From contig JAVJQK010000139.1 in NCBI GenBank assembly GCA_040218145.1, forward strand, positions 1 through 37,543: a stretch of DNA of 37,543 nt, read 5' to 3'. Source of the stretch: Sandaracinaceae bacterium (GTDB taxonomy: Bacteria > Myxococcota_A > Polyangia > Polyangiales > Sandaracinaceae). The first letter of the stretch is position 1, and each line of letters opens with the position of its first letter. The translations under genes and the position numbers were made by a program. The notes under the pieces are model-generated. The model had not been told where the DNA came from. It worked only from the letters and a program-made list of their open reading frames with translations, and ran no database searches. This document shows, in pieces, positions 28,688 through 37,543 of this stretch.

Positions 28688-29617
28688 ATGTCGTCCATGC
28701 TCGTGGTGGGCTCGGTCGCCCGCGACACCATTCACAACAACCAGGGCACGCACCCGTACGTGCTCGGCGGCTCGGCCGTCTTCGCCGCGCTCGCTGGCGC
28801 CCACTTCGTCGAGCCCCGCGTGGTCGGCATCGTCGGCACCGACTTCCCCGACTCGGAGGTGAGCCTCCTGAAGTCGAAGGGCGTCGACGTCAGCGGCCTC
28901 GAGATCGTCGACGGCAAGACCTTCCACTGGGAGGGCCGCTACTCCGACGACCTGACGAGCCGCGAGTCGATCAAGACGGAGCTCAACGTCTTCGCGGACT
29001 TCCACCCGAAGATCCCCGAGAGCATGCGGGACACCCCGTACGTCATGCTCGGCAACATCCACCCCGACCTGCAGGTCGAGGTGCTCGAGCAGATGCGCGA
29101 GCCGAAGCTCGTCATCGCCGACACGATGAACTTCTGGATCGAGGGCACGCCCAACGAGCTCTCGCGCATGCTGAAGCGCATCGACGTGCTCGTGATCAAC
29201 GAGGAGGAGGCCCGTCAGCTGACCGGGCTGCACAACATCGTGAAGGTGGCCAAGGAGCTGCTGACGATGGGTCCGCGCATCGCGGTCATCAAGCGCGGCG
29301 AGTACGGCGCGCTGCTCTTCGAGGGAGACTCGGTCTTCAGCGCGCCCGCCTTCCCGGTGGACAAGGTCCTCGACCCGACCGGCGCCGGCGACACCTTCGC
29401 GGGCGGCATGCTCGGCTTCATCGCCCAGCAGGACCGCGTCGATCAGAGCACCCTGCGCCGCGCGATCGTCTACGGATCGGCGCTCGCCTCCTACTGCGTG
29501 GAGGGCGTCTCGGTGAAGCGGCTCAACGAGGTGAGCCGCGAGGACGTCGAGGAGCGCTACCTGGCGTTCGCCCGCCTCGCGCACTTCGCGACCGACGACG
29601 AGCTGAAGCGGGCCTGA
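28688..29617 (+). CDS. PfkB-family sugar/nucleoside kinase
   Basis: The 309-residue cytosolic kinase shows the PfkB signature DPTGAGDTFAGGM, with GAGD at 232-235 forming the anion hole and Asp 235 as base. It also has an N-terminal GGSAVFAAL segment, a VINEEEARQLTG strand and IAVIKRGEYGALLF. The substrate is not readable from motifs. Position 16 bases after mtnP suggests a substrate linked to methylthioadenosine breakdown (a ribose derivative or adenosine), which is inference. GAGGAG precedes the ATG. No other methionine-salvage gene is in the window. Confidence 0.88.
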   Translation: MSSMLVVGSVARDTIHNNQGTHPYVLGGSAVFAALAGAHFVEPRVVGIVGTDFPDSEVSLLKSKGVDVSGLEIVDGKTFHWEGRYSDDLTSRESIKTELNVFADFHPKIPESMRDTPYVMLGNIHPDLQVEVLEQMREPKLVIADTMNFWIEGTPNELSRMLKRIDVLVINEEEARQLTGLHNIVKVAKELLTMGPRIAVIKRGEYGALLFEGDSVFSAPAFPVDKVLDPTGAGDTFAGGMLGFIAQQDRVDQSTLRRAIVYGSALASYCVEGVSVKRLNEVSREDVEERYLAFARLAHFATDDELKRA

Positions 29618-30782: not shown

Positions 30783-32759
30783 ATGCGTTGGCTGATCTTG
30801 ACCTCGACCCTCCTCGTCTTCGCCTGTGACGGCGAGGCGCCGGCTCCCGACGCCGGCCCTCGCGACGCCCAGGTCGTGATGGACTCCGGCCCGGCCGAGC
30901 CCTGCACCGCGGACCGCGAGTGCGACGACGACCTGTTCTGCACCGTGCACCGCTGCCTCCCCGGGAACCCGGCCGGCGACGCGCGCGGCTGCGTCATGGT
31001 CGACGACCCCTGCGCGCCCGGCGAGGTCTGCGACGAGGCGATGGACCGCTGCGCCACGGAGACGTGCGGCCCCGACCCGGACGCGGACGGCGACGGCGTG
31101 GACTCGATCGCGTGCGGCGGCATCGACTGCGACGACGACGACGAGTTTCGGTTCCCGGGCAACGCCGAGGTCTGCGACGCCATGGGGCACGACGAGGACT
31201 GCACCGACGAGACCGTCGCCGGCGCCACCGACGGGGATCTCGACGAAGACGGCTTCACCAGCGCGCTCTGCTGCAACGGCGCCAACTGCGGCGACGACTG
31301 CGACGACGACGACCGCTCCGTCTTCCCCGGCGCCCGCGAGCTCTGCAACGGCCGCGACGACGACTGCGACGGGATGACCGACGAGGAGCCCCCCGGCGCC
31401 GACCCGCTCTGCCCCGGCGGCACATGCAGCGCGGGTCGCTGCGATCTTCGCCTCTGGGAACGCACTTTCGGCGGCGCCGGGGGAGACCTCACGAGCGCGG
31501 TCACCATGGACCGCTTGGGCCGGGTCTATGTCGCGGGCTGGTTCCAAGGCACCGCCACCTTCGGTGGCCCTCCCCTCGTGTCCGCGTCCCCTGACAACCC
31601 GGACGCATTCGTGGTCGCATTCGGCGCCGACGGCTCATACCGGTGGGCGCGTCGATACGGCGGAGTAGCGGCCGACGTCGCAACGGACATCTCTTACGAT
31701 CCCATCGCGGACCAGATCTACGTAGCCGTGGCCAGCTACGGCGACGCCGACTACGGCATGGGCGTCCGTCCGGGGCCCACATCCGCGATACTCGCCCTCG
31801 GTTCGGACGGATCCTACCTGTGGGATCGGACGTTGCCGGACTACCCATTCGTGGCGCTGGACGGCCACGATGGGGTCGTCTTCAACACGCTCCTTCACAG
31901 CGGGCGCGCGCACGACTTCGGAGGTGGCGTTCGGACGCCCCGCGGAGAGGATTTGATCGTGGTCCGGCTCCGCTCCGACGGCTCCTACCTCTGGGATGTC
32001 CACGTCCGCGCGCCGACGGGGGGTCAGGTACGCCCGGCCCGGATCTCGCTAAGCGCGGACGGATCCGTATCCGTGGCCGGGGACTTCCGCGGCGGCGCCG
32101 TCGACTTCGGCGATGGTCCACGAACTAACCAGGGAGCAAACGACATCTTCGCGCTACGACTCAGCGCCTCCGGATCTCACGTTTGGGACTACACGGCTGG
32201 TGGCGCTGGCGTCGATTCTGCGAGCGCGCTCAGGCTCGCGCGGGACGGGGGCGCCTTTCTCGTTGGGTCGTTCGAAGGCACCGTCGACTTCGGCCTCGGG
32301 CCGGAGCTCGCGCCCGCCCCGACCAGCGCGTTCCTTCTATCGCTGGGCCCCGCTGGAAGTGCGCTCGGCGCACGCTCCTGGGGCGGCAGCGGACGCTTGA
32401 ACGCAGCCAGCAGCGTGGCCCAGGATTCGAGCGGCAACGTTCACGTGGTCGGCAGCTTCGCCGGAGCCGTCAACTTTGGGGGCGGCAACCGCATGGCCCC
32501 TGCGGACGGAGCTGGCTTTCACGCGGTCTTCGACTCGGCTCTGAATCACCGATCCGATCGCATGTACAGCTTCGCTGGAGCAGACACCGGCGCACCGTGC
32601 CCCGATGCGACTTGCGAGGTGCGTGTCGTCGACCTCGTGGTCGGCGCAGCTGACAGCACCGCTCTCGCTGGCTACTTCGAAGCGAACGTCGACCTGGGTG
32701 GTGGAACGCGCTTCGCCACGGGGGGCGCCGACGGCTTCATCGTGCGCCTGGGCCGCTGA
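30783..32759 (+). CDS. Lipoprotein with MopE-type metal-binding motifs and SBBP-like beta-propeller repeats
   Basis: The 658-residue protein has a signal peptide (LLVFAC) and linker. A Cys-rich N-terminal part contains two copies of the MopE-type putative metal-binding motif (CDDDDEFRFPGNAEVCD and CDDDDRSVFPGARELCN, each followed by DxDC). From ~220 come about seven repeats of the form G-x-V-D-F-G-G-G ... D-x-F-x-x-x-L-x-x-D-G-S-x-x-W (for example DAFVVAFGADGSYRWARRYGG). These resemble SBBP propeller blades. The protein is probably on the cell surface; ligand unknown. Codon use changes between the halves: third positions in the propeller part are less G/C-rich than in the first part. Confidence 0.8.
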   Translation: MRWLILTSTLLVFACDGEAPAPDAGPRDAQVVMDSGPAEPCTADRECDDDLFCTVHRCLPGNPAGDARGCVMVDDPCAPGEVCDEAMDRCATETCGPDPDADGDGVDSIACGGIDCDDDDEFRFPGNAEVCDAMGHDEDCTDETVAGATDGDLDEDGFTSALCCNGANCGDDCDDDDRSVFPGARELCNGRDDDCDGMTDEEPPGADPLCPGGTCSAGRCDLRLWERTFGGAGGDLTSAVTMDRLGRVYVAGWFQGTATFGGPPLVSASPDNPDAFVVAFGADGSYRWARRYGGVAADVATDISYDPIADQIYVAVASYGDADYGMGVRPGPTSAILALGSDGSYLWDRTLPDYPFVALDGHDGVVFNTLLHSGRAHDFGGGVRTPRGEDLIVVRLRSDGSYLWDVHVRAPTGGQVRPARISLSADGSVSVAGDFRGGAVDFGDGPRTNQGANDIFALRLSASGSHVWDYTAGGAGVDSASALRLARDGGAFLVGSFEGTVDFGLGPELAPAPTSAFLLSLGPAGSALGARSWGGSGRLNAASSVAQDSSGNVHVVGSFAGAVNFGGGNRMAPADGAGFHAVFDSALNHRSDRMYSFAGADTGAPCPDATCEVRVVDLVVGAADSTALAGYFEANVDLGGGTRFATGGADGFIVRLGR

Positions 32760-32790
32760 CCAGAAAGCAGGGTGCAAGGAGAGCCCGTCG

Positions 32791-32820
32791 TTGAAACAGG
32801 TTCAACCACCGCTGTATGCT
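32791..32820 (+). promoter_or_regulatory. Sigma-70-like promoter for the polyprotein gene
   Basis: TTGAAA (32791-32796), an 18-base spacer and TATGCT (32815-32820) match consensus at 5 and 4 of 6 positions. The start would be near 32827, about 56 bases before ATG 32883. This supports separate transcription of the next gene. Confidence 0.5.
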
Positions 32821-32882
32821 CGTCCAGACGTGTTCGACCGATGCGCAGCCCTGCGCGCGGCGAGCCTTCTGGAGGTCAGGGG

Positions 32883-35800
32883 ATGGACCGCTTCGACGTA
32901 TCTAGCTTTTATCGCTCCACGCTGATCGCGGCGTTCGCGCTCGCGGCGACCGCCTGCGACGGCGGCTGCTCGGGCTGCGAGTCCTGCGGGCTCACGCCCA
33001 TACCGGGGGCGTTTCCTCTCGAGCACCGGATCGAAGACTCGGCCCAGGTCCGCCTGAGCTCGAGCGGGATCTCGTTCATCGAGGACAACATCGGCGCGAT
33101 CGTGATGACGTTCATGCCCGACGGGCTCGACTTCGACGTCGACCGCCAGGAGGTGGACGCCGGCATCACCATCACGATCTGCGAGGACAGCGACTGCACG
33201 GCGCACCTCGAGATCGACTCGCTGGAGATCTCCCCGACCGACCCGAACATCCTGCGGGCCCACATCGAGCTCATCCTCGATAGCCGCAACCGCGCAGGCG
33301 AACGATCCGCATGGAACGGGACCTGTGACCTCGACCTCGACAGTCGGCGCGGGAGCCGGCCCGTCGTCGGCTTTGACGCGGACATCCGCTTTGCCGGGAT
33401 TCCGACCGACGATCCGGTGAGGGCGGCGCGGAGGGGCTACACGGAGATCATCGTGGAGAACGCGACCCTCTCCCCAGGACAGGGGATCGAGGACGAGGAC
33501 ATTCGAATCTCGGGCGGGTTCCTCGGCTCGTGCGCGGCGCTGAACCTCGGATTCATCAAGAACTTCATCATCGGAATGGTCGAGGACCAGGTCGATGGCC
33601 TCGTCGACGACGCGGTGAACGACGCGCTCTGCCAGAAGCGAGGCGAGTACCAGTGTCCGACCGGCACGTTCTCCGTCCCGGACGAAGACCCTGGCTCGAC
33701 CTGCCGCTTCGAGAACAACGAGGACGCGGCCTGCGTGCCGATCCTGCTTGGCACCGATGGTCGCGGTGATCTCGGGGGCTCGCTCATCGGCGGCTTCTCC
33801 CCGGGAACCCACGCCTACATGCAGTTCCAGCTCGCGTCGGGCGGAGACGGCGAAGCCGTGAACGAGGGCATGAGCCTCTTCTTCTACGGCGGCTTCATGG
33901 GCATGGACCGGACGTTCACCGAGACGCCCGCACACAACCCGTGCGTCCCCGTGGTCGAGCCGCCCGCCCTCCCGGAGATCAGCCGCGCGGCGGCGTTCCG
34001 CGGGAACGTGATCCCCGGCACCACGACCGAGACCCACCTCGGCATCGGCATCGCCGAGGACTACATGGACTACGCCGGGTACGGCTTCTTCGACTCCGGC
34101 GCGCTCTGCATCGGAGCTGGGACGCGGTTGAGCCAGCAGCTCAGCACGGGCCTCGTCTCGGCCGCGATCATGTCGCTGCCGGACCTGACCTTCCCGGAGG
34201 AGAACTCGGCGCTGACCATCGCGGTGCGGCCGCAGCAGCCGCCGGACTTCACGGTCGGCGCGGGCACCGAGGCGGATCCGCTCCTGACGATCACCCTGCC
34301 CGAGGCGCAGATGGACTTCTACGTCTGGAGCACCGAGCGCTACATCCGCTTCATGACCTTCCAGACGGATCTCGTGATCCGGATGAACCTGGTCATCGAG
34401 GAGGGCGAGATCGTGCCGATGATCCTCGGCATCGACGCGACGAACTCGTCGGTCACGAACAGCGAGCTGCTCCAGGAGCGCGCGGAGTCCCTCGCGGGCA
34501 CGCTCGAGACGCTCATCAGCTCGTTCGCGGGGATGCTCACGAGCGGGATCAGCCCGATCGCGCTGCCCGACATCATGGGCTTCAACCTCGAGGTGCCCGA
34601 CGGCGGCATCACGCAGGCGACCGAGGGTGAGGACCGCTTCCTCGCCATCTTCGCCAACCTCGCGCTCGCGGGCCCGATGCCCTTCACCTCGCCGGTGGAG
34701 ACCACGCTCCGGGTGAGCGACCTCGAGCTGGACCGGGAGTCGATGGATCCGGAGCACTGGGCCGAAGGCGAGGGCAACCGCGCCTGGCTGCACTTCGCGG
34801 CCGAGGGCCCGCTCGGGGTCGAGTACGAGTACAGCTACCGGATCGACGGCGGCCCCTGGTCGCGGTGGACCACCGACGAGCGGCTCCAGATCGCGGACGA
34901 GATCCTGCTCCTGCAGGCGCGTCACGAGATCGAAGGCCGCGCGCGCGTGCTCGGCGAGCCCGGCAGCGTCGACCCGACGCCGGCCCGCGCCGACCTCGTG
35001 ATCGACATCCTCGCGCCCACCGTCACCGCGGAGCGCACGTTCGAGGGCATCGAGGTCGACGCGACGGACATCGTCTCGGCCGCCGACGCGCTCGAGTACC
35101 GCTACGAGATCGACGGCGCCTGGACGGCGTGGTCGAGCGACGCGGTCCGGACGCTCGAGGAGGACGCCACCGTGACGCGCGTCGAGGTCCGCGACGAGGC
35201 GGGCAACGTCGGTCGCTCGCAGCACGCGCTCATCCGCGGCCTGCCGAACTCGGCGGCCGGTGACGGATGCGGCTGCTCGGCCCCCGGCGCGGGCTCGAAG
35301 CTGCCGCTCGGCGCGCTCGGCCTGCTCGCCCTGCTGGGCATCGCGCTCGGTCGTCGGCGGGCCCGGGAGGTCCCGCGTCGCCGCCGGCGCGTTCCGTTTC
35401 TGTCGCTCTTCTCGGTGATGGCGCTCACCGCGCTCCTCGCGAGCGGCTGCGAGTGCGGCACCAACATGCCCGACGGCCCCTGCGCGGGTGGGTGCGCGCC
35501 CGCGTCGCCGCCGGCCGATCCGACCGGGTCGGCGTGCTGCGAGGCGCAGGACATGTGCGTCGAGTACAACGTGGACGAGCTCTGCGAGCCCGGGTTCACC
35601 TGCCCGGTCGACAACGTCGAGATGGACGCGGAGAGCTGCGGCTTCTCGTGCTCGAGCTGTGAAGAGAAGCCGCCGCTGCCCCCGGGTCAGCTCGCGACCT
35701 ACCTCGACGCGGTCGTGGACGACGCGGGCACGGTCTACGTGAGCGGCTACAGCCCGGGCGCCCCTGGTGTGCCCTACGGCGACCTGGTCTTCGGCCAGTG

Positions 35801-37013
35801 GAACGGCACGGCCGTCGACTGGGAGATCGTCGACGGCGCCCCCGAGGGTCCCGTCACGGGCGGGCCCAGCGGCTGGCGCGGCGGCGTGTTCGCCCCCGGG
35901 GACGACGTCGGCCAGTGGACCAGCATGGTCCAGCAGGACGGCAGCTTCCTCATCGCCTACTACGACGTCGACAACGGCGCGCTCAAGCTCGCCGCGGGCG
36001 GCCCCGGCGGGACCTGGGCCACTCACACCATCGACGCCGCGGGCGACAGCGGCCGCTACGCCTCGCTCGTGCTGACCGAGGCGGGCGTGCCGGTGGTCTC
36101 GTACCTCCGCATCGCCGAGGACACCGAGACGCCGGGCAACATCCGCAGCGCGGTGATGGTCGCGACCGCGAACCTCGCCAACCCGAGCGCGGAGACCGAC
36201 TGGACCGTGACCGAGATCGCCGCGGGCCCGATGGCGTGTCGCCCCGAGTTCTGCACGACCGGCACCACCTGCATCGAAGACGGCCAGTGCGTGACGCCGA
36301 CCTCCGACTGCAGCGCGGACTGCGCCAGCGGCGACGTCTGCTTCAACGGGAGCTGCCGGACCGGGCTGCCCGCCGGCTACGTCGAGGACATGCCCCCGGC
36401 GCTCGGCCTCTACACCTCGCTCGCGGACGCGGGCGGCGGCCAGCTCGCGCTGGTCTACTACGACCGCTCGAGCGGCAACCTCTACGGCGCGGCCTTCGAC
36501 GGCGCGGCGTGGGGCGCGCCCTTCCTCATCGACGGCTACGCCCTGATGGACCCGGACGTCGGTGACTCGGGCATGAGCGCGAACCTCTTCGTCGACTCGG
36601 CCGGGCTCTGGCACGTCGCCTACGTCGACGGCACCGAGGAGACCCTCCGCTACGCCCAGGTGCAGCCCGACGGAACCGTCGTGCTCCGCGAGGTCGTGGA
36701 CGACGGCTCGACCGACGGCACCGCCCGCTTCACCGACGGCCGCCACATCGTCGGCGACGACGCCTCCATCGTGGTCGAAGAGGGCGGCGCGGTCCGCATC
36801 GCCTACCAGGACGCGACGGCCCAGGACGCCGTCGTCGCGGTCCGCCCCGCCGGCGGCGGCGACTGGGCGATCGCGCACTTCGACACCGAGGACTCCACCG
36901 GCTACTGGATCGAGCAGGAGCTCCTCGGCACCGTCAGCTACGCAGTGATGTGGTGGCGCTCCCGCGACGGCCGCAACATCGTCGACGGCATCCGCGTCGT
37001 CACCCTCGAGTAG
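32883..37013 (+). CDS. Two-part surface protein: MYXO-CTERM-like segment in mid-protein followed by a second lipoprotein-type signal
   Basis: The 1376-residue frame starts at ATG 32883 (GGAGG 7 bases upstream). Its lipoprotein-like signal (IAAFALAATACDGGCSGC) leads to a ~740-residue first region. That region ends in Ig-like repeats (EYSYRIDGGPWSRWTT and EYRYEIDGAWTAWSS). At residue ~793 a MYXO-CTERM-like tail appears: GDGCGCSAPGAG (Cys 796), a membrane helix (LPLGALGLLALLGIAL) and GRRRAR. Translation continues without a stop through PRRRRR into a second hydrophobic segment with lipobox LLASGC (Cys 856). A Cys-rich linker and a ~500-residue repeat domain of propeller/sialidase-like type follow (VQQDGSFLIAYYDVDNGALKLA; LALVYYDRSSGNLYGAAFDG). 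The basic loop between the two helices fits a hairpin with both large domains outside. No good internal start codon with charged n-region exists for the second part. Confidence 0.75.
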   Translation: MDRFDVSSFYRSTLIAAFALAATACDGGCSGCESCGLTPIPGAFPLEHRIEDSAQVRLSSSGISFIEDNIGAIVMTFMPDGLDFDVDRQEVDAGITITICEDSDCTAHLEIDSLEISPTDPNILRAHIELILDSRNRAGERSAWNGTCDLDLDSRRGSRPVVGFDADIRFAGIPTDDPVRAARRGYTEIIVENATLSPGQGIEDEDIRISGGFLGSCAALNLGFIKNFIIGMVEDQVDGLVDDAVNDALCQKRGEYQCPTGTFSVPDEDPGSTCRFENNEDAACVPILLGTDGRGDLGGSLIGGFSPGTHAYMQFQLASGGDGEAVNEGMSLFFYGGFMGMDRTFTETPAHNPCVPVVEPPALPEISRAAAFRGNVIPGTTTETHLGIGIAEDYMDYAGYGFFDSGALCIGAGTRLSQQLSTGLVSAAIMSLPDLTFPEENSALTIAVRPQQPPDFTVGAGTEADPLLTITLPEAQMDFYVWSTERYIRFMTFQTDLVIRMNLVIEEGEIVPMILGIDATNSSVTNSELLQERAESLAGTLETLISSFAGMLTSGISPIALPDIMGFNLEVPDGGITQATEGEDRFLAIFANLALAGPMPFTSPVETTLRVSDLELDRESMDPEHWAEGEGNRAWLHFAAEGPLGVEYEYSYRIDGGPWSRWTTDERLQIADEILLLQARHEIEGRARVLGEPGSVDPTPARADLVIDILAPTVTAERTFEGIEVDATDIVSAADALEYRYEIDGAWTAWSSDAVRTLEEDATVTRVEVRDEAGNVGRSQHALIRGLPNSAAGDGCGCSAPGAGSKLPLGALGLLALLGIALGRRRAREVPRRRRRVPFLSLFSVMALTALLASGCECGTNMPDGPCAGGCAPASPPADPTGSACCEAQDMCVEYNVDELCEPGFTCPVDNVEMDAESCGFSCSSCEEKPPLPPGQLATYLDAVVDDAGTVYVSGYSPGAPGVPYGDLVFGQWNGTAVDWEIVDGAPEGPVTGGPSGWRGGVFAPGDDVGQWTSMVQQDGSFLIAYYDVDNGALKLAAGGPGGTWATHTIDAAGDSGRYASLVLTEAGVPVVSYLRIAEDTETPGNIRSAVMVATANLANPSAETDWTVTEIAAGPMACRPEFCTTGTTCIEDGQCVTPTSDCSADCASGDVCFNGSCRTGLPAGYVEDMPPALGLYTSLADAGGGQLALVYYDRSSGNLYGAAFDGAAWGAPFLIDGYALMDPDVGDSGMSANLFVDSAGLWHVAYVDGTEETLRYAQVQPDGTVVLREVVDDGSTDGTARFTDGRHIVGDDASIVVEEGGAVRIAYQDATAQDAVVAVRPAGGGDWAIAHFDTEDSTGYWIEQELLGTVSYAVMWWRSRDGRNIVDGIRVVTLE

Positions 37014-37069: not shown

Positions 37070-37138
37070 TTCCGTCCCCTTCGACCCAGCGCGACCGACC
37101 CGAGGACCGAGCGCGTCGAAGCGGCCCCCGACCGACCC

Positions 37139-37543
37139 GCGAAGCAACGCAGCGAAGCGGGCGCACGGCCATCCCGAGGAGCGAGCGCAGCGAAGCGGGC
37201 GCACGGCCATCCCGAGGAGCGGCGCAGCGAAGTGAGCGCACGGCCATCCCGCGGAGCGAGCGCAGCGAAGCGAGCGCACGGCCATCCCGAGGAGCGAGCG
37301 CAGCGAAGCGGGCGCACGGCCATCCCGAGGAGCGGCGCAGCGAAGCGAGCGCACGGCCATCCCGAGGAGCGAGCGCAGCGAAGCGGGCGCACGGCCATCC
37401 CGCGGAGCGAGCGCAGCGAAGCGGGCGCACGGCCATCCCGAGGAGCGAGCGCAGCGAAGCGGGCGCACGGCCATCCCGAGGAGCGAGCGCAGCGAAGCGG
37501 GCGCACGGCCATCCCGAGGAGCGGCGCAGCGAAGTGAGCGCAC
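37139..37543. repeat. 37/38-base tandem repeat, ten copies plus a partial one, running off the window
   Basis: The core CACGGCCATCCC occurs ten times with spacing of 37 or 38 bases; an eleventh unit is cut by the window end. Unit variants are AGGAGCGAGCGC or AGGAGCGGCGC (loss of one A gives 37), CGAGG or CGCGG, and GAAGCGGGC, GAAGCGAGC or GAAGTGAGC. There are no unique spacers, so it is not CRISPR. Units of 37 and 38 are not multiples of three, so peptides read through it shift register and long frames on either strand are by-products. Bases 37070-37138 hold nothing recognisable. Confidence 0.92.

Follow-up and report, generated by a model that had tools for sequence, protein, structure and literature searches.

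The polyprotein strategy is better known from viruses, and to our knowledge few polyproteins are thought to be made by cellular bacteria. One such bacterial precursor is the cytochrome b/c1 polyprotein FbcH of Bradyrhizobium, which is split by signal peptidase at an internal signal sequence. Another kind of proteolytic step is associated with MYXO-CTERM sorting tags: TraA is cleaved by the myxosortase MrtX, which is also active in E. coli, and the cysteines of the MYXO motif are required (PMC11980579). The same authors argue that sorting tags function from a mid-protein position, and report for MXAN_5598 of Myxococcus xanthus an internal MYXO-CTERM between two secreted parts, an atypical configuration for which they suggest gene fusion and propose processing of the N-terminal part (PMC11980579).

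The window (the whole stretch of DNA that was analysed, 37,543 nucleotides from a Sandaracinaceae genome) carries on its forward strand a fused precursor gene of 1376 codons plus stop (32883..37013), a single open frame with homologous single frames in dozens of relatives. The reading that we favour, at a probability of about two in three, is that this gene would encode a secreted polyprotein, cut by the lipoprotein signal peptidase LspA and probably by a myxosortase into two surface lipoproteins.

The fused gene, its signals and its two halves

The frame is open throughout from 32772 to 37013 (+ strand), with a GTG at 32772, a likely start at the ATG at 32883 and the stop codon at 37011-37013; the features described below all lie on the same strand. 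The product begins with a lipoprotein signal (LIAAFALAATA-C25, lipobox LAATA-C25; 32883..32957), followed by a predicted BPI/LBP/CETP-like (TULIP) lipid-binding domain (33030..34676) and two fibronectin-III-like (FnIII-like) domains (34686..35234). Next comes an internal MYXO-CTERM (35262..35366), which consists of the motif GDGCGC with cysteines at residues 796 and 798 (C796 codon 35268-35270), helix 1 (about residues 807-823) and the start of an arginine cluster. A predicted cytoplasmic loop of 13 mostly basic residues, RRRAREVPRRRRR (residues 824-836; 35352..35390), separates helix 1 from a second hydrophobic segment (residues 837-855), which together with the lipobox LLASG-C856 makes up an internal lipoprotein signal (35391..35450; C856 codon 35448-35450). 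The rest of the frame (35448..37010) encodes a C-terminal lipoprotein with a Cys-rich linker and a predicted beta-propeller.

The first-pass annotation had pointed to a MYXO-CTERM in the middle of this 1376-residue frame and to a lipoprotein signal behind it, and both are borne out. TIGR03901 matches residues 794-828 of the whole protein with 22.5 bits (curated cut-off 20), the 93-residue junction fragment with 27.9 bits and positions 35262-35366 in a genome scan with 29.7 bits, while the internal lipobox cysteine C856 is present in all 21 diverse full-length relatives that were aligned (31-62% identity to the window protein). The Cys motif, the helix and the RRR cluster of the MYXO-CTERM are all in place and are retained in relatives; the extreme C-terminal position is not, as 548 residues follow the match. 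Given this long extension, and with 73 of the 81 matches in the genome being terminal, the signal is best regarded as an internal variant and not as an ordinary member of TIGR03901. The signal of the C-terminal half has the basic n-region, hydrophobic h-region and lipobox cysteine of a lipoprotein (RRRRR-VPFLSLFSVMALTALLASG-C), but it is internal to the translated product, behind a loop without an in-frame start codon, and stands at the N-terminus only in split relatives. What had been overlooked is the lipoprotein signal at the very start of the protein, the cysteine of which (C25) is likewise found in 21 of 21 aligned relatives; since the N-terminus also carries such a signal, there are three candidate lipidation sites on the precursor.

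The hairpin order of parts with two canonical signals that the annotation had put forward is present, as are genes for the enzymes needed. The genome encodes the myxosortase MrtC (NF040594, 257 bits, cut-off 195) and, twice, LspA (two PF01252 matches above cut-off). The two LspA genes adjoin each other (G000:C35:66772-67805, loci L325 and L326, G000 being this genome).

A Pfam search with the full-length 1376-residue protein gave no match, nor did a PDB sequence search with a profile of the N-terminal half. The AlphaFold2 model of the N-terminal half (pLDDT 88.4) aligns with BPI over 423 residues (Z 17.4, rmsd 5.3, 12-14% identity; Foldseek E 2.4e-16), a score well above those of the remaining structural matches, and its residues 578-760 match FnIII tandems with Z about 8-9. 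On the basis of this model the N-terminal half is a predicted BPI/LBP/CETP-like (TULIP) fold followed by two FnIII-like domains, for which lipid binding is predicted. The C-terminal half (pLDDT 93.3) is modelled as a lectin/sialidase-like beta-propeller, with the Photorhabdus lectin PHL (Foldseek E 3.9e-11) and sialidases among its matches. The pairing of a lipid-binding protein with a glycan-binding-like propeller would be in keeping with a role in the envelope or at the surface. Judged from the sequence together with the models, one uninterrupted frame holds two separately folding proteins, in the manner of a polyprotein.

The BPI-like TULIP domain is conserved in bacterial lipoproteins across Polyangia, where N-only paralogues exist as well. 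The fused gene is adjoined upstream by a gene for an SBBP-repeat beta-propeller lipoprotein with MopE-type metal-binding motifs (window 30783-32759). On its other side, a tandem repeat with a 38-bp unit in ~12 copies (window 37099-37543) reaches the contig end and probably caused the contig break.

The order TM-Arg-TM-lipobox at the junction is the same as in the locus L318 (G209:C151:9048-9335), a Myxococcota exemplar of the lipo-invert family (NF058595), in which a short tail lies between TM-RRRR-TM-lipobox-Cys and the C-terminus. By analogy, the lipidated C-terminal part of the window protein could stay bound to the N-terminal part after or even without cleavage, the role of the second signal being to provide the first protein with an anchor at its C-terminal side. 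The match of NF058595 to the junction is nevertheless weak (19.5 bits in the fragment, 15.5 in the genome scan) and lies under the curated cut-off of 37 bits, a complete and confidently modelled propeller takes the place of the short tail, and the N-terminal part already owns a lipobox at its own N-terminus. Such an arrangement is improbable here, and membership in the NCBI family is rejected on the score. The tail of L318 resembles the end of an Ig-like domain and might complement that fold once the protein is cleaved; a literature search for the name lipo-invert gave no match.

Conservation of the junction among relatives

Homologues encoded by a single frame turned up throughout the same family and order in a search of 96 related genomes, and in a scan of named genomes the fused form was present in Sandaracinaceae MAGs, Polyangium, three complete Sorangium cellulosum chromosomes and Kofleriaceae MAGs. 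The window stems from a draft assembly of 148 contigs, and an error of sequencing or assembly might have joined two genes; the first-pass annotation had named a hidden sequencing error as a possible refutation. The same fusion, with its frame open, is present in G096, a further genome of the species, in dozens of relatives from many independent assemblies and in complete genomes; these comparative data refute an error, which is left with next to no probability. Neither are the orthologues all separate genes, a second outcome that had been envisaged: among the 79 relatives with a decidable gene structure 73 are fused, including the three complete Sorangium genomes, and six are split. In a tree of the C-terminal half, the six split rows are scattered among the 73 fused ones and at least four changes are needed; as this is a quick tree in which most deep branches are weak, the claim is limited to fusion being the common and widespread state, with no polarity beyond that.

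The two signals are no chance resemblance, given their recurrence within the genome (below) and their conservation: the MYXO-CTERM is matched at E <= 0.01 in 15 of the 21 diverse full-length relatives, all of which have the internal lipobox cysteine. All relatives whose junction was read retain a MYXO cysteine. A few distant fused members (L065, L068, L070, L073, L075, L097) keep just the first GCGC cysteine, and with one cysteine left, recognition by myxosortase may be weak in these. Across 55 junctions the residue before the internal lipobox cysteine is glycine (50) or alanine (5), positions -3 and -2 are loose, and the distance from the arginine cluster to the cysteine varies from 17 to 59 residues. 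Identity of aligned residues in the loop is not below that elsewhere, since arginines align with arginines, and loop length was therefore used as the measure of constraint instead.

The same pieces occur separately at the ends of proteins. Paralogues of the N-terminal half (L038-L040, L053, L063, L088-L090, L093) end just past the arginine cluster, as canonical MYXO-CTERM proteins do, and the split C-terminal halves L057, L076 and L280 start with their own methionine and a normal lipoprotein signal. This bears on an alternative in which both hydrophobic segments remain uncut as a permanent hairpin anchor, yielding one inner-membrane protein with two domains, or in which LspA alone cuts and helix 1 is left on the N-terminal half. 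Such an anchor would agree with the hydrophobic nature that both segments show in almost all relatives, and cleavage is so far what we infer. An uncut anchor, however, needs neither the Gly/Ala-Cys after the second segment nor the cysteine before helix 1, and both are kept; in split relatives these pieces serve as terminal signals of the ordinary kind. Furthermore, the hydrophobic run before the internal cysteine has a median of 15 residues, compared with 13 in the signals at the N-termini of these proteins, and so appears signal-peptide-like and short for a stable membrane span. A permanent anchor, or cleavage by LspA alone, is thus unlikely, if worth keeping in mind beside the polyprotein.

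An internal translation start could in principle yield the lipoprotein separately, making the fused frame incidental, and some ATG, GTG or TTG does occur in the loop of 33 of the 55 junctions. In the remaining 22, the window's among them, no in-frame start is available in the region needed for the signal peptide, a start codon accompanied by an SD-like sequence is found in four junctions only, and in any case no stop codon intervenes, so that the fused product would be made regardless. This survey does not support an internal start as the only origin of the second protein, and we consider it very improbable indeed.

A PfkB-family kinase gene (window 28688-29617) and neighbouring genes on the same strand are conserved upstream of the fused gene in about 20 loci; apart from this kinase, the comparison of gene neighbourhoods among relatives gave no functional clue.

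Recurrence of the junction within the genome and the phylum

TIGR03901 has 81 matches above cut-off in this genome, 73 of them C-terminal, with the frame ending within 20 residues of the match, and 8 internal. An in-frame lipobox follows 7 of the 8 internal MYXO-CTERMs, and the remaining one leads into a signal-peptidase-I-like ...APARAQ site. When the terminal MYXO-CTERMs are read through their stop codons in frame, 0 of 73 show a lipobox (Fisher p = 2.3e-9 against 7/8), a control that is partly built in because most stops precede non-coding or out-of-frame sequence. The other two frames contain a lipobox in 11 of 146 cases, most of which are separate downstream lipoprotein genes. In five cases the stop of the MYXO-CTERM gene (L134, L157, L158, L175, L131) overlaps the start of the lipoprotein gene behind it by 4 nt (GTGA or ATGA), which suggests translationally coupled MYXO-CTERM/lipoprotein pairs. 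With such separate pairs in the same genome, MYXO-CTERM genes often precede a tightly coupled lipoprotein gene, and the fusion can therefore be viewed as an extreme form of this arrangement.

Besides the window gene, there are seven genes of this genome in which the frame runs on from an internal MYXO-CTERM into a second export signal, a lipobox in six and the signal-peptidase-I-like site in one (C128:88655, L199; C33:4940, L200; C76:129637, L198; C33:103742, L189; C91:49470, L164; C146:5694, L155; C98:19838, L196). A further case lies below threshold (C104:250642, L204). The fused partners are unrelated to one another and include MopE repeats with an FGE-sulfatase-like domain, a GDSL lipase, PD40 repeats and, by a weak match, a phospholipase-C-like protein.

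Among the best 30 MYXO-CTERM matches in G001, a complete relative genome, three are internal; two have a lipobox, and the third (L341, G001:C1:7047552-7047656) stands out as the only clear exception, with 117 residues in frame after the MYXO-CTERM and no second signal. The sole internal match among the best 30 in G055 is the orthologue of the window gene. Similar junctions are found in other families of the phylum (L321-L323), and when the phylum was scanned with the junction profile, the threshold of E 1e-10 proved too strict and yielded mostly orthologues of the window gene. The chances seem about even that the Myxococcota use the MYXO-CTERM/lipobox hairpin generally as a junction module, which replaces the stop/start pair between co-produced surface proteins and is cut by myxosortase and LspA; it would then define a broad class of bacterial polyproteins with a fixed 1:1 output in many unrelated families.

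Proposed processing and known systems

In the polyprotein model, the N-terminal lipoprotein signal would begin export of the BPI-like lipid-binding protein, until the helix of the internal MYXO-CTERM halts transfer, with the arginine loop left on the cytoplasmic side. Export would then resume at the second hydrophobic segment, which would act as an internal lipoprotein signal for the beta-propeller. Both C25 and C856 would be lipidated and cut by Lgt and LspA, and MrtC would cut at the GCGC motif, so that the two-helix hairpin is discarded. Two lipid-anchored proteins of the envelope or surface would arise from a single message in a 1:1 ratio. At the sequence level this proposal builds on the uninterrupted frame, both signals and their conservation, their terminal use in split versions, and the MrtC and LspA genes; export, lipidation, both cleavages, stoichiometry and the surface location of the products are what we infer from them. 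As dozens of related species retain the join and unrelated proteins have it too, some surface proteins of these bacteria are probably made as membrane-cut precursors.

If cleavage takes place as proposed, Myxococcota would possess a widespread class of single chains from which two surface proteins are freed by the joint action of an intramembrane sorting protease and lipoprotein signal peptidase. The ratio and timing of both proteins would be fixed, and they might be paired for export. The MYXO-CTERM lipidation route could also be tested on one molecule that bears both kinds of lipidation site, and genome annotation would have to account for genes that give two mature proteins where databases would list one.

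The elements of this scheme are already on record separately: an internal MYXO-CTERM in one published case, the TM-Arg-TM-lipobox hairpin in lipo-invert, and a polyprotein cut by signal peptidase in FbcH. FbcH differs from the window gene in that signal peptidase I acts on a component of a respiratory complex and neither a sorting tag nor a lipoprotein signal is involved. Cleavage by LspA at an internal lipoprotein signal was not described in the literature searched. The first-pass annotation had called a bacterial polyprotein of this kind unusual; the locus turns out to be less isolated than that, given at least seven further genes in the genome, MXAN_5598 (PMC11980579) and the NCBI lipo-invert hairpin model. 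In the papers searched we found neither the full combination nor its conservation over much of the phylum or its repeated occurrence in unrelated genes.

The comparison with individual systems is instructive. The N-terminal half shares its fold with BPI/LBP/CETP (TULIP superfamily), yet it is bacterial, has two FnIII-like domains and membrane tags, and is only 12-14% identical to BPI. With lipo-invert (NF058595, invert_tail; exemplar L318) the junction shares a TM, an arginine cluster, a second TM and a lipobox cysteine; lipo-invert provides a short C-terminal anchoring tail, whereas the window gene, with its score below cut-off, continues into a full protein. Like the MYXO-CTERM substrates of myxosortases (TIGR03901; TraA/MrtX, PMC11980579), the window protein has the Cys motif, one helix, the arginine cluster and a myxosortase in the genome, but in contrast to ordinary substrates its signal stands in mid-frame, directly ahead of another export signal and another protein. 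MXAN_5598 is alike in its internal MYXO-CTERM between secreted parts, and differs in that its C-terminal part is by description an outer-membrane beta-barrel with OmpA domains (PMC11980579), where the window gene encodes a lipoprotein.
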